Assembly (NCBI RefSeq): GCF_900631945.1 | Contig: NZ_UZWE01000022.1 | Coordinates: 1-64,000 of the forward strand | Length of the DNA: 64,000 nt | From: Paracoccus haematequi | GTDB taxonomy: Bacteria; Pseudomonadota; Alphaproteobacteria; Rhodobacterales; Rhodobacteraceae | Direction: 5' to 3' | Shown: piece by piece, positions 6,189-64,000 of the stretch | Layout: every line of letters starts with the position of its first letter | Numbering within the stretch: position 1 is the stretch's first letter | Notes under the pieces: model-generated | Databases searched by the model: none | Told to the model about the DNA's origin: nothing | The model's input: the letters and a program-made list of their open reading frames with translations, nothing else | Translations under genes and position numbers: made by a program

Positions 6189-6240
6189 CCGGGGGACTTC
6201 ACGTCCCCCGGACCCCCTGTGGGATATTTGGACAAAGGTG
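6189..6240 (+). repeat. Intergenic repeat, GGATATTTGG family, with hairpin
   Basis: A perfect 9-base-pair stem CCGGGGGAC/GTCCCCCGG (6189-6211) is followed by CCCC-rich sequence and GGGATATTTGGACAAAGG. The same layout recurs elsewhere in this window, usually just after stop codons. Here it lies directly 3' of the phosphodiesterase gene and could end its transcript. Confidence 0.7.
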
Positions 6241-27200: not shown

Positions 27201-27300
27201 GCCTCCGGCGGGGATATTTGGGCGAAGATGAAAGGCAGTTTCACCTTTGCCCAAATATCCTGGGGGAGTCCCGCAGGGACGGGGGCAACGCCCCCTTTCT
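27201..27300. repeat. Head-to-head pair of GGATATTTGG intergenic repeats
   Basis: A plus-oriented core GGGGATATTTGGGCGAAG (27210 on) and a minus-oriented copy with the same core (27239-27266) are separated by five bases, giving an imperfect inverted repeat of about 24 bases per arm. The minus-oriented copy carries the usual G/C-run hairpins at 27261-27297. It separates icd from purQ. Confidence 0.7.
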
Positions 27301-50709: not shown

Positions 50710-51594
50710 ATGAAAAGCTATACGCTGCGCGTCACCTGTGCCTCGACCCGCGGGATCGTGGCCGCCATCTCCGGCTATCTGGCCGGACACGACTGCAACA
50801 TCACCGACAGCGCGCAGTTCGACGACGCCGAGACCGGCCGCTTCTTCATGCGCGTCAGCTTCCGGTCCGAGGGCGAGGCGACGCTGGAGCAGTTGCAGCA
50901 AGGCATCGCCCCCATAGCCGAGCGTTTCGGGATGGAGGCCGTCTTCAGCGACGACGCGGTGAAGGCCAAGGTCATCATCATGGTGTCGCGCTTCGGTCAT
51001 TGCCTGAACGACCTGCTGTATCGCTGGCGGATCGGCGCGCTGCCGATCGACATCGTGGCGGTGATTTCCAACCACATGGATTACCAGAAGGTCGTGGTGA
51101 ACCATGACCTGCCTTACTACTGCATCAAGGTCACCAAGGAGAACAAGGCCCAGGCCGAGGCCGAACAGATGCGCATCGTGCGCGACACCGGGGCCGAGCT
51201 GATCGTGCTGGCGCGCTATATGCAGGTGCTGTCGGACCAGATGTGCCAGGCCATGTCCGGGCGGATCATCAACATCCACCATTCGTTCCTGCCCAGCTTC
51301 AAGGGCGCCAACCCCTACAAGCAGGCCTATGAGCGCGGCGTGAAGCTGATCGGCGCGACCAGCCATTACGTGACCGCCGACCTGGACGAAGGTCCGATCA
51401 TCGAGCAGGACACGGTGCGCGTGACCCATGCGCAGTCGCCGGGCGACTATGTGTCCTTGGGCCGCGATGTCGAGGCGCAGGTGCTGGCCCGCGCGATCCA
51501 CGCGCATATCCACCACCGGGTGTTCCTGAACGGCGAAAAGACCGTGGTCTTCCCGCCCTCGCCCGGCAGCTATGCCAGCGAGCGGATGGGGTAA
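50710..51594 (+). CDS. purU: Formyltetrahydrofolate deformylase
   Basis: A 294-residue PurU, which hydrolyses 10-formyl-tetrahydrofolate to formate and tetrahydrofolate and so balances the one-carbon pool. An N-terminal ACT domain (residues 1-85, CASTRGIVAAISGYLAGHDC) precedes the formyltransferase fold with SRFGHCLNDLLYRW, the catalytic NIHHSFLPSFKGANPY and the Asp in VTADLDEGPIIEQD. Length and domain order are typical. A GC-rich repeat follows, then a candidate small RNA. Confidence 0.94.
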   Translation: MKSYTLRVTCASTRGIVAAISGYLAGHDCNITDSAQFDDAETGRFFMRVSFRSEGEATLEQLQQGIAPIAERFGMEAVFSDDAVKAKVIIMVSRFGHCLNDLLYRWRIGALPIDIVAVISNHMDYQKVVVNHDLPYYCIKVTKENKAQAEAEQMRIVRDTGAELIVLARYMQVLSDQMCQAMSGRIINIHHSFLPSFKGANPYKQAYERGVKLIGATSHYVTADLDEGPIIEQDTVRVTHAQSPGDYVSLGRDVEAQVLARAIHAHIHHRVFLNGEKTVVFPPSPGSYASERMG

Positions 51595-51601
51595 AGAAAA
51601 A

Positions 51602-51670
51602 GGGGGGGGCTTTGCGCCCCCCGACGCGCTGCGCGCGTCTCCCCCCGCAGGATATTTTCGCCAAGGCAAA
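51602..51670 (+). repeat. Intergenic repeat, GGATATTTGG family
   Basis: A G-run/C-run hairpin (GGGGGGC ... GCGCCCCCC), a second GC stem (GACGCGC-TGC-GCGCGTC) and then CCCCCCGCAGGATATTTTCG. It starts 7 bases after the purU stop and can act as its terminator. Confidence 0.65.
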
Positions 51671-51708
51671 GCGGCGAAACGATTTCTTAACCTTGAGCCG
51701 TTATGACG

Positions 51709-51792
51709 GGGTTACGGGACAGGCGGGGACGCCGATGACCGTCCAAGGCAAAGCGCCCCGTTTCCTTTCGGAAGCGGGGCGGCATTGTTTTG
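51709..51792 (+). ncRNA. Candidate small RNA A (3' of purU)
   Basis: Two hairpins make up this element: GGCG-GGGA-CGCC (51722-51733, GNRA-type loop) and a 12-base-pair terminator-like stem (51754-51781, one G-U pair, loop TTTC) followed by GCATTGTTTT. A linker containing GATGACCGT joins them. A block of 23 bases (51720-51742) is identical to one in a second element near folD, and TACGG just upstream and a CTTAA about 30 bases upstream are also shared. The frame opened by the internal ATG shares only three residues between the two loci. Nothing on this strand follows it, so it would be a stand-alone transcript. Expression is unproven. Confidence 0.45.
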
Positions 51793-51853
51793 CCTTGGTT
51801 GAAATATCCCGGGGGGAGTCCCCTTGGGGACGGGGGGCAGCGCCCCCCTTTTC
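51793..51853 (-). repeat. Intergenic repeat, GGATATTTGG family
   Basis: On the minus strand: a GGGGGGCG hairpin, GTCCCC-AAG-GGGAC stem, then CCCCCCGGGATATTTC. It begins right at the stop of the BMP gene and probably terminates that operon. Confidence 0.65.
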
Positions 51854-52933
51854 TTATTGCGGGAGTTCCGCCGTGATGCCTTCGACATAGAAGTTCATGC
51901 CGGACAGGTCTTCATCCGTGGCCGTCTGCCCCTCGGCAAGCCAGACGCTGCCGTCGGCCTTGTTCAGCGGACCCGTGAAGGGATGGTATTCGCCCGCCGC
52001 GATCTTGTCGCGCAGCGCCTCGGCCTCGGCCTTGACCTCGGCGGGGACGGCCTCGGTGATCTCGCCGATGGCGACGATGCCGTCGCCGATGCCGCCCCAG
52101 ATCGCCTCGGGCTTCCAGGTGCCGTCCAGGATCCGGCCCACGCTTTTCACGTAATGCGCCCCCCAGTTGTTGTAGACCGAGGAGACGCGCGGCGTCGGCG
52201 CGAACGACGCCATGTCGCTGGCCTGGCCGAAGCCGATCTTGCCCGCCTTCTGCAACTGCGCCAGCGGCGCGGTCGAGTTGGTGTGTTGCAGGATCACGTC
52301 CACGCCCTCGGCCATCAGGGCGTTCGCGGCATCGGCTTCTTTCGCGGGATCGAACCAGCTATAGGCCCAGACCACGCGCATCTCGACATCCGGGTTCACC
52401 TTCCTGGCGTGGATATAGGCCGAGTTGATGCCTTGGATCACCTCGGGGATCGGGAAGGTGGCGATATAGCCGATCTTGTTCGACTTGGTCATCCGGCCCG
52501 CGATGGTGCCGGTGACGGCGCGGCCTTCGTAGAAGCGGCCGTCATAGGTGCCCACGTTGTCGGCGCGCTTGTAGCCGGTGTTGTGTTCGAACTTCACGTC
52601 GGGAAACTTGGCCGCGACGTTGATGACCGCGTCCATGTACCCGAAGCTGGTCGCATAGATCACGTCGTTGCCCGCCAGGGCCAGTTGCGTCAGCGCGCGT
52701 TCGGCATCGACGCCCTCGGGGACGTTTTCCAGATAGGTGGTCTCCACCCGGTCGCCGAATTCCTGTTCCACGGCCAGGCGGCCCTGGTCGTGCTGATAGG
52801 TCCAGCCGCCGTCGCTGACCGGGCCGACATAGATGAAGCCGACCTTGAGCGGTTCGTCCTGCGCCCAGCTTGGCAGGGCGAGGCTGATGGTCGTCATGGC
52901 GGCGACGCTGGCGATAAGGTTTCTGCGGTTCAT
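51854..52933 (-). CDS. BMP family ABC transporter substrate-binding protein
   Basis: A 359-residue periplasmic protein of the BMP/PnrA family, which binds purine nucleosides in studied members (some bind riboflavin or other bases). Signal peptide [20 protein letters not shown] ends at SWA; no lipobox Cys is seen. The core has [50 protein letters not shown] and the C-terminal NFYVEGI. It is the last gene of a four-gene importer operon (ATPase, permease, permease, binding protein). Confidence 0.9.
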
Positions 52934-52961
52934 GCTTGCCTCTCTGTTGGTCCCCGCGCGC

Positions 52962-53849
52962 CTAGCGCAGGGCATGAAAATCCTGTCCCAGCGATCCCGG
53001 CGCGGTGCTGCCCGCGCGGCGGCTGAATTTCTGCCGGGCCGAGATCGCGACCAGTACGACGATGGTCGCCAGATAGGGCGCCATCGACAAAAGCTGCACG
53101 GGCACCCGCACGCCCGCCGCCTGAAGGCGCAGTTGCAGCACCGTCACGCCGCCGAACAGCCAGGCCCCCGCCAGCACCCCCGGCGCGGTCCAGTTGGAAA
53201 ACACCACGATGGCCAGCGCGATCCAGCCCGCGCCCGCCGTCATGCCTTCAGTCCATTGCAGCACCGTCGCGACCGAGATGAAGGCCCCGCCGATCCCCGC
53301 CATGGCGCCGCCGAAGGCGATGGCGGCGATGCGCACGCGGCGCACGTCATAGCCCAGGGCGTGGGCGGCGTCGTGATTCTCGCCCACGCCGCGCAGGATC
53401 AGGCCCGCGCGCGAGCGGTTGAGGAACCACCAGATCAGCGGCACCATCAGCAGGCCCAGCCAGACGATCCAGTGCAGGCCCAGCGGGCCGGGCGCCATGG
53501 TCGGGGCCTTGACCCCCTCCATCGGCTTGCCGAACAGCGCGGCAAGCCCCAGGCCGAACAGCGTCAGCGCCAAGCCCGATGCGACCTGGTTCGACAGCAG
53601 GAACTGGGTCAGCACCGCGAAGGGCAGGGCGATCAGCGCGCCCGCCAGGGCGGCGGCGGCAAAGCCCAGGACCGGGTTGCCGCTGTGATAGGCGGCGGCG
53701 AACCCGGCCAAGGCGCCGGTGATCATCATCCCCTCGACCCCCAGGTTCAGCACGCCCGCGCGTTCCGCGACAAGCTCTCCCAAGGCGGCGAACAGGATCG
53801 GGGTCGATGCGGTCAGCAGCATCAGGAACAGCGCGACGGGGTCGATCAT
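52962..53849 (-). CDS. Nucleoside-type ABC transporter permease (YufQ-like)
   Basis: A 295-residue permease of the branched-chain/nucleoside group. MIDPVALFLMLLTASTPILF, the conserved ALGELVAERAGVLNLGVEGM and a central GENHDAAHALGYDVRRVRIA, the ATPase-contact loop, identify the second permease of BMP-dependent importers. About eight to nine helices are predicted. Its start overlaps the stop of the preceding permease by 4 bases (ATGA). Confidence 0.9.
   Translation of the reverse strand: MIDPVALFLMLLTASTPILFAALGELVAERAGVLNLGVEGMMITGALAGFAAAYHSGNPVLGFAAAALAGALIALPFAVLTQFLLSNQVASGLALTLFGLGLAALFGKPMEGVKAPTMAPGPLGLHWIVWLGLLMVPLIWWFLNRSRAGLILRGVGENHDAAHALGYDVRRVRIAAIAFGGAMAGIGGAFISVATVLQWTEGMTAGAGWIALAIVVFSNWTAPGVLAGAWLFGGVTVLQLRLQAAGVRVPVQLLSMAPYLATIVVLVAISARQKFSRRAGSTAPGSLGQDFHALR

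Positions 53850-62157: not shown

Positions 62158-62161
<4 letters not shown>
61262..62161 (+). CDS. htpX: Membrane zinc protease HtpX
   Basis: A 299-residue M48 metalloprotease that degrades damaged membrane proteins. Two N-terminal helices ([38 protein letters not shown]) precede the zinc site [20 protein letters not shown]; two more helices ([36 protein letters not shown]) and the third ligand region [14 protein letters not shown] follow, ending with [14 protein letters not shown]. It overlaps ruvA at its start and ruvB at its end (ATGA), so it is embedded in the ruv cluster. Confidence 0.94.
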
Positions 62162-63189
<1,028 letters not shown>

Positions 63190-63190
63190 C

Positions 63191-63258
63191 AGGGGGCAGG
63201 GGGCTTTGCCCCCGCCGCGCGTGCCGCGCGACTCCCCCAGGATATTTGTGGTCCAATG
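63191..63258 (+). repeat. Intergenic repeat, GGATATTTGG family
   Basis: GGGGGC-TTT-GCCCCC hairpin (63199-63213), a CGCGC-rich second stem, then CTCCCCCAGGATATTTGTGG. It starts right after the ruvB stop and can terminate the ruv transcript. Confidence 0.65.
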
Positions 63259-63261
63259 CAG

Positions 63262-63342
63262 GAATGAAAAACGCCCCATCCTTGCCGGATGGGGCGCCTG
63301 CTTCGGACACGGTCATCGGCGTCCCCGCCTGCACCGTAGGCC
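63262..63342 (-). ncRNA. Candidate small RNA B (3' of folD)
   Basis: On the minus strand this locus repeats the layout of candidate A: GGCG-GGGA-CGCC hairpin (63329-63318), linker with GATGACCGT, then a perfect 10-base-pair hairpin CGCCCCATCC/GGATGGGGCG (63272-63296) followed by TTTTTCATT, a textbook terminator. Bases 63309-63331 are identical to the block in A. The sequence between folD and this element is only 78 bases, so it could be an independent RNA or the processed end of the folD mRNA. No gene follows on this strand before ruvB (convergent). Confidence 0.5.
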
Positions 63343-63419
63343 CATGATTGCCAGGATTGCTTAAGATTCGGTTTATGTCCCGATGCGGACTGCAAGTCTC
63401 GCAGCCCCCGGTTGCGGGC

Positions 63420-64000
63420 TCAGGGCGTCAGGCCGTCGGGATCGGGCAGGCCGTTGGCGCGAGCCGTCGCGGTCAGCGTGTTGGCCAGCAGGCAGGCGAT
63501 GGTCATCGGGCCGACGCCGCCAGGAACGGGGGTGATGGCGCCCGCCACCCTGGCCGCCGCGTCGAAATCGACATCGCCGACCAGCCCGTCATCGGTGCGG
63601 TTGATGCCCACGTCGATCACCGTCGCGCCCGGCTTGATCCAGTCGCCCCGCACGAAATGCGCGCGGCCCACTGCGGCCACGACGATGTCGGCCTGGCGGC
63701 ACAGGTCGGGCAGGTTCGCGGTGCGCGAATGGGCCACCGTCACCGTGGCGCTGTCGCGCAGCAGAAGCTGGGCCATCGGCTTGCCGACGATATTGCTGCG
63801 GCCGATGACCAGGGCGTTCTTGCCCGACAGGCTGCCCAGATGGTCGCGCAGCAGCATCAGGCAGCCCAGCGGCGTGCAGGGCACCATCGCCTTCTGTCCT
63901 GTCGCCAGCCGCCCGACATTCAGGATATGGAACCCGTCCACGTCCTTGGCCGGATCGATGGCGTTGATGACGGAGAATTCGTCCATATGGGACGGCAGCG
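63420..64000 (-). CDS. folD: Methylenetetrahydrofolate dehydrogenase/cyclohydrolase FolD (partial, N-terminus outside window)
   Basis: The C-terminal 193 or so residues of FolD, which interconverts 5,10-methylene-, methenyl- and 10-formyl-tetrahydrofolate with NADP+. [22 protein letters not shown] is split at the window edge; [13 protein letters not shown], the cofactor motif [26 protein letters not shown] and the C-terminal [20 protein letters not shown] are all diagnostic. The catalytic Lys and N-terminal domain lie beyond base 64000. The frame is open to the edge. Confidence 0.95.

Follow-up and report, generated by a model that had tools for sequence, protein, structure and literature searches.

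A hairpin RNA family of Rhodobacteraceae with CtrA-type promoter boxes on chromosomal copies and box-free copies on mobile elements

A regulated host copy of an sRNA combined with a constitutive plasmid copy is described for RocR and RocRp in the accessible parts of PMC9977716 and PMC11472951, according to which the plasmid-borne RocRp guides RocC to RocR targets and represses competence constitutively. RocR itself is a short sRNA, 66 nt in length, that has a stem-loop at its 5′ end as well as a terminator, as far as the accessible part of PMC7973641 goes. The RNA family reported here resembles RocR/RocRp in both respects. However, RocR is described, in the sections available, as pairing through a 6-nt antisense stretch in its 5′ stem-loop and needing RocC (ProQ/FinO), whereas here the loop varies; the two are set apart by published descriptions. 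CcnA of Caulobacter crescentus is likewise an alphaproteobacterial ncRNA tied to CtrA, but it works through a CCCC loop in the available text of PMC8959179; the present loop begins with G in all 58 distinct cores, and a CcnA homologue was ruled out by the loop sequence. EcpR1 of Sinorhizobium meliloti is an alphaproteobacterial trans-acting sRNA that forms two stem-loops and shows strong conservation of the first, at the 5′ end, but its constant loop, given as UCCGCCGCAUCU in the portion of PMC4414408 available, is absent from the present core, and homology to EcpR1 was ruled out on the same ground. CtrA controls competence (comEC, comM, and comF), gene transfer agent (GTA), and motility genes in Rhodobacterales (PMC6473078, accessible sections), and its control of GTA genes is also reported in the accessible sections of PMC10883770.

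The window, i.e., the whole stretch of 64,000 nucleotides of Paracoccus haematequi analysed here (contig NZ_UZWE01000022.1), carries two copies of the RNA, A and B. Direct reading of the sequence bore out the 23-base identity reported in the first-pass annotation, with CAGGCGGGGACGCCGATGACCGT at exactly 51720–51742 (+) and 63331–63309 (−). TACGG and CTTAA, also reported as shared, are common to loci A and B in the same register, 22 bases apart in both, and the downstream genes are indeed convergent (a Bmp-type binding protein at locus A and RuvB at locus B). That annotation did not mention that each copy is preceded, on its own strand, by a one-carbon-folate gene (PurU-like and FolD-like, respectively). 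Two of the five RNA copies of the genome are placed in this way (51594–51714 and 63337–63420), 11.6 kb apart and on opposite strands. The 12-base hairpin GGCGGGGACGCC occurs exactly at these two window places only; since it is no commoner than chance at ≤2 mismatches (45 found vs 43.3 expected), the longer match is what counts.

Table 1 Features of the two RNA copies and their neighbouring genes in the window.
Feature	Position	Strand	Basis
PurU-like gene, upstream of copy A	50713-51594	+	
Copy A, candidate CtrA-type box GAAA-N7-TTAA (6/8 bases of TTAA-N7-TTAA; −38 from putative start)	51676-51690	+	
Copy A, −10-like hexamer TATGAC	51702-51707	+	sequence and family register
Copy A, putative transcript start	51714	+	
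Copy A, 5′ hairpin: P1 ACGG/CCGT, internal loop, P2 GGCG/CGCC, loop GGGA	51714-51742	+	
Copy A, match to covariance model R2 (57.5 bits)	51714-51755	+	
Copy A, purine-rich linker forming the 5′ arm of a long two-part hairpin	51743-51798	+	folding
Copy A, outer stem (inner stem GC)	51743-51754 with 51787-51798	+	
Copy A, AAATATCC box (wider intergenic repeat, often after these RNAs)	51802-51809	+	
Bmp-type binding protein, downstream of copy A	51854-52975	−	
FolD-like gene, upstream of copy B	63420-63986	−	
Copy B, candidate CtrA-type box TAAA-N7-TTAA (7/8 bases)	63361-63375	−	
Copy B, −10-like hexamer AATCAT (weak)	63344-63349	−	sequence and family register
Copy B, putative transcript start	63337	−	
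Copy B, 5′ hairpin	63309-63337	−	
Copy B, match to covariance model R2 (52.6 bits)	63337-63296	−	
Copy B, linker and long two-part hairpin (inner GC stem, then TTTTT)	63251-63308	−	
Copy B, AAATATCC box	63240-63247	−	
RuvB, downstream of copy B	62158-63189	+	

The first-pass annotation had proposed a two-locus sRNA family. A family of intergenic RNA genes of ca. 70–100 nt, each with a start region of its own and a hairpin resembling a terminator, is supported, but two loci are too few: a covariance model detected five clear copies in the P. haematequi genome (the window pair plus C57, C79, and C41), and the best of the remaining candidates had an E value of 0.44. A 27-base pattern allowing up to three mismatches matched 87 of 101 genomes of the genus, and its reversed control gave 0 in all 101. 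At E ≤0.001 with strict filters, 194 of the 248 Rhodobacteraceae genomes in the family draw had matches, mostly 1–4 per genome with a maximum of 7. The class draw yielded 11 matching genomes out of 385, seven of them outside Rhodobacteraceae with 1–3 copies each. In the phylum draw, 29 of 398 genomes matched at E ≤0.01, comprising 26 Rhodobacteraceae, one genome elsewhere in the class, and two weak matches in other classes. Scanning GTDB contigs with an exact 22-mer returned at least 120 stretches; among the 120 listed, 11 titles were non-Rhodobacterales or gave a class or phylum name only. Separately, one RNA copy of this genome shares its contig and strand with comEC, at a distance of ca. 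9 kb (G000:C57:134442 and G000:C57:143513).

In a gapless alignment of 145 distinct copies, the putative +1 is a purine (A/G) in all 145. Then come P1 (RCGG/CCGY), an internal loop that hardly varies, P2 capped by a tetraloop, and a linker rich in purines. Part of this constancy reflects how the copies were chosen, because most were retrieved by an exact core pattern. We also used a broader sample, 58 distinct cores, of which many were retrieved with a covariance model or by BLAST. In this set, 463 of 464 pair cells of the 29-nt 5′ hairpin were standard. Compensatory changes in the stem, which the first-pass annotation had named as a test of its proposal, are present: both sides changed at four of the eight pairs (49 cells), which none of 500 shuffles reached, and the pairing signal was lost when the partner was shifted by one to three columns. 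Pair 12–17 was GC in 33 cores, UA in 21, AU in three, and CG in one, and pair 10–19 was swapped to CG in two of the 58; the number of further pair types (12) was unexceptional, being reached by 69 of 500 shuffles. A possible helix extension (C7–G24 and A8–U23) was paired in 58/58 cells each and was almost invariant. What stays constant in the core is the internal loop together with the pairs on either side, and the tetraloop occurs as GGGA, GGGG, GGAG, GAGG, GCGG, GGTG, GGCG, and others. The earlier suggestion of a GGGGA loop as a seed is unsupported because the loop letters vary and only the first G is invariant. A resemblance between the internal loop (ACAGG/CCGATG) and the peptidyl-transferase centre of 23S rRNA was dismissed as no more than chance would give.

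Downstream of the linker, a AAATATCC-like box was found in 142 of the 181 chromosomal copies tested. The outer stem between the linker and the arm before AAATATCC had a mean run of 11.1, compared with 6.6 when arms were swapped between loci, and the run was ≥7 in 137/142 vs 45.9% with swapped partners, the 39 copies without the box being left out of this scoring. Relative to shuffles, folding of the whole RNA was marked at locus A (z −5.84) and less marked at locus B (z −2.78). A stem of ≥7 was present in 182/182 chromosomal and 42/43 mobile copies, a count that had no shuffled control and was not used, and a stem plus ≥4 T in the next 8 bases was present in only 58/182 and 18/43, respectively; many copies have no clear U tract. 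The terminator looks intrinsic. Locus B has the clearest terminator of the two window loci and alone shows a clear U tract, the TTTTT noticed earlier being confirmed at 63271–63267.

To compare promoters, the 225 distinct copies were split into 182 chromosomal and 43 mobile ones. This split was made by the analyst, non-blind, after noticing that alien copies seemed to have no box; copies on Rhodobacteraceae contigs were counted as chromosomal by default. The mobile set consists of 21 copies on plasmid records, three (L036, L051, and L135) placed there for their upstream resemblance to plasmid copies, and 19 classed as mobile solely from lying on contigs outside the family or in IMG/VR. L234, on a 1.74-Mb replicon of Paracoccus versutus listed as a plasmid, has a box of 8/8 bases and was counted as chromosomal.

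Among the chromosomal copies, TTAA-N7-TTAA, which we take to be the consensus CtrA site, is located at −38 to −24, over the −35 region; CTTAA, real but left unexplained in the earlier reading, is the proximal half of this CtrA-type box. At least six of its eight bases were present at the single best offset in 119 of 182 chromosomal copies (shuffled mean 1.17, maximum 5), and the number rose to 161 when one base of slack was allowed (shuffled mean 2.19, maximum 8). All five copies of the window's genome pass, with 6 or 7 of 8 bases. The start region has A at −11 and T at −7 in a fixed register. Among the 145 aligned copies, the columns between the boxes and the start are much less conserved, so common descent alone is a poor explanation for the boxes. 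By the non-blind grouping described above, the CtrA-type box was found in 0/21 plasmid-record, 0/3 resemblance, and 0/19 outside-family or IMG/VR copies. TG at −15/−14 was present in 17/21, 2/3, and 7/19 of these copies, respectively, vs 39/182 chromosomal copies, and TANNNT at −12 in 10/21, 2/3, and 15/19 vs 9/182. The contrast in the box between chromosomal and mobile copies stands after the non-blind sets are weighed.

In PLSDB, 43 plasmid records matched a 44-nt query at E ≤1. Several of these matches are probably due to chance, those of Sphingobium lying in acrB. The core was present on all 22 plasmid records examined (E <1e-9 with model R2, which was built partly from those records); the plasmid hosts include Rhizobiales, Thiothrix, and Legionella, and an annotated replication gene is located within 1.1 kb in 11 of the 22 records, in either orientation. 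We scanned 30 proteins neighbouring 18 loci outside the family, two of these loci being IMG/VR contigs and three coming from one genome (G332). A plasmid, conjugation, toxin-antitoxin, or transposase domain was beside 10 loci [Rep3, T4SS coupling protein (3), TraD, TraF, MobA/MobL with ParD, HigB, and IS integrase (2)], and nothing telling was beside the other eight. Some of these non-family contigs are MAGs, which may be misbinned. Two patterns searched in IMG/VR matched one contig each, and the RNA core was not matched in the phage collection or in E. coli genomes. The family module persists in AT-rich and GC-rich hosts. Copies in AT-rich hosts, on a Legionella anisa plasmid (L159:3951–4100) and in a 1.5-Mb alphaproteobacterium (L167, near 1500), are followed by AAATATCCCGGGG and a hairpin start GGGGCAGMGCCCC typical of Rhodobacteraceae, suggesting transfer of the whole cassette.

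From the family, structure, promoter architecture, and distribution computed here, we infer that the loci are transcribed, that CtrA binds the chromosomal promoters, that Hfq helps (its domain PF17209 was found in 20 of 21 relatives), that the RNA acts in trans, and that it serves a purpose on mobile elements. The whole reading, a family of CtrA-controlled trans-acting sRNAs that mobile elements carry freed from CtrA, is in our estimate slightly favoured, with a probability of roughly 0.55. Each locus would be an independent trans-acting sRNA gene. On a chromosome, the response regulator CtrA, a switch of the cell-cycle type, would bind TTAA-N7-TTAA across the −35 region, upstream of a weak −10, and turn the gene on; the RNA would start at RCGG, so that its 5′ end would be locked in the 29-nt hairpin, and this would be followed by a locus-specific purine-rich segment and an intrinsic terminator. 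The near-constant internal loop, together with the variable tetraloop and stems, points to partner recognition rather than seed pairing, and the loop is probably a docking site for a conserved partner, which should be widespread because the module persists in both AT-rich and GC-rich hosts. The several paralogues of a genome, having the 5′ module in common, may act together within the CtrA programme. Conjugative or mobilisable plasmids and related elements, whose copies have no CtrA box and more often an extended −10 TG, would expose the host to this RNA independently of when CtrA acts, a plasmid RNA without the switch, as if imitating or overriding a host signal.

As an alternative, the RNA could be a RocR-like silencer of DNA uptake that pairs with competence mRNAs (comEC, comF, comM, and dprA), with CtrA simultaneously opening and limiting both DNA uptake and GTA reception, and with plasmids shutting uptake permanently. 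This is unlikely, although the layout of a host sRNA plus a plasmid copy is that of RocR/RocRp and CtrA controls comEC, comM, and comF in Rhodobacterales (PMC6473078, in part). The domain of the RocR partner (ProQ/FinO, PF04352) was found in 0 of 31 relatives by a search that considered domain presence only and was positive in the E. coli control. In a crude duplex-energy test of two of these genes, the starts of comEC (11 loci) and dprA (12 loci) paired no better than other blocks: the median share of blocks at least as good was 0.77 and 0.65 for comEC, 0.84 and 0.43 for dprA, and 0.29 and 0.63 for the hfq control (2 loci). Blastn of the Legionella anisa copy against PLSDB (E ≤10) returned 40 records, none from L. 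pneumophila. Because neither the chaperone domain in the relatives searched nor a signal of pairing at the comEC and dprA starts was found, and L. pneumophila does not appear among the 40 records, we did not file the family as RocR.

Transcription of purU and folD could run on into copies A and B, and it is conceivable that the loci are 3′-UTR elements or processed 3′-UTR sRNAs of these genes rather than independent genes. Consistent with this, each window copy follows a gene on its own strand and retains its neighbours in other genomes of the genus (PurU and Bmp of copy A in L009, L023, L029, and L056; FolD and RuvB of copy B in L020). We nevertheless consider it quite unlikely, since promoter elements are conserved in a fixed register, other copies adjoin unrelated genes (the upstream gene of L022 is on the opposite strand), and plasmid copies have no such upstream gene. 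The unrelated genes beside the chromosomal copies give no functional clue.

A palindromic, MITE-like mobile repeat, with arms transcribed incidentally and an RNA that has no role of its own, is very improbable. It would account for an upstream GGATATTT...AAGATGAAAG arm that mirrors the downstream ...AAATATCC arm in several copies, and similar arms were found at 22 places of the genome vs 0 for the reversed control. However, synteny is retained within the genus, the arms of each locus change in concert, conservation is far higher in the core than in the arms, and the upstream arm is absent from many copies. The left-hand sequence of the GGCT-type copy of the window's genome (L177) is common to L019, L021, L027, and L234, and the loci with retained surroundings, copies A and B included, look stable rather than recently inserted. 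The arm pattern itself is an intergenic repeat found more widely in Rhodobacteraceae, and these RNA loci often finish with it (225 near copies, 36 away). At 27212–27260 of the window there is a near-perfect palindrome (GGATATTTGGGCGAAGATGAAAG, 3 bases, and a mirror ending in AAATATCC) with no RNA core between its arms, and related arms occur near 6223, 9255, 51650, and 63241.

A short peptide starting within the hairpin (GATGACC) is the least probable explanation. In its favour, the core ATG varies at the first base alone (A22, altered in 3 of 58 distinct cores), and the linker shows a weak triplet pattern. However, ≥10 codons follow the core in the ATG frame in 166 of 182 chromosomal copies vs 166 and 135 in the other frames and in 28 of 43 mobile copies vs 32 and 27, and in the Legionella anisa copy a stop is reached after four codons. 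Shine-Dalgarno mimicry was also set aside: chromosomal linkers paired with the 16S tail at −6.55 kcal/mol, no better than reversed linkers (−6.67; shuffled −5.34), and mobile linkers did somewhat better (−6.68; reversed −4.82 and shuffled −5.33 kcal/mol).

The earlier remark that the RNA was not recognised as a named Rfam family agrees with Rfam 15, in which there was no match at the gathering score. The Rfam 15 scan of the window, which alone covered locus B, returned tRNA only, and searches with locus A (E ≤10) and the Legionella anisa copy (E ≤1) gave nothing near the gathering score. Core sequence words led to no relevant paper in the open literature, in which searches for sRNAs of Rhodobacteraceae or Roseobacter also found no description; RNA-seq lists (e.g., Grull 2017) may contain copies under locus names. 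In our view this is a previously undescribed RNA family and a novel form of the theme of a host sRNA with a plasmid copy.

It is a tentative and rather doubtful extension that conjugative and mobilisable elements across Alphaproteobacteria, and into Legionella and Thiothrix, generally hijack the CtrA programme (motility, gene transfer agents, and DNA uptake) at the level of RNA, through the 29-nt hairpin and a broadly conserved partner, in hosts where ProQ/FinO was not found. The finding matters in that a structured RNA outside Rfam is present in 194 of 248 sampled Rhodobacteraceae genomes, in multiple copies, and also on plasmids of other orders and classes. As the core is short and constant, a single probe or deletion set could serve several laboratory strains. 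If the promoter contrast is real in meaning, it would give a testable handle both on the RNAs that serve the CtrA programme in Rhodobacteraceae and on the action of plasmids upon that programme.
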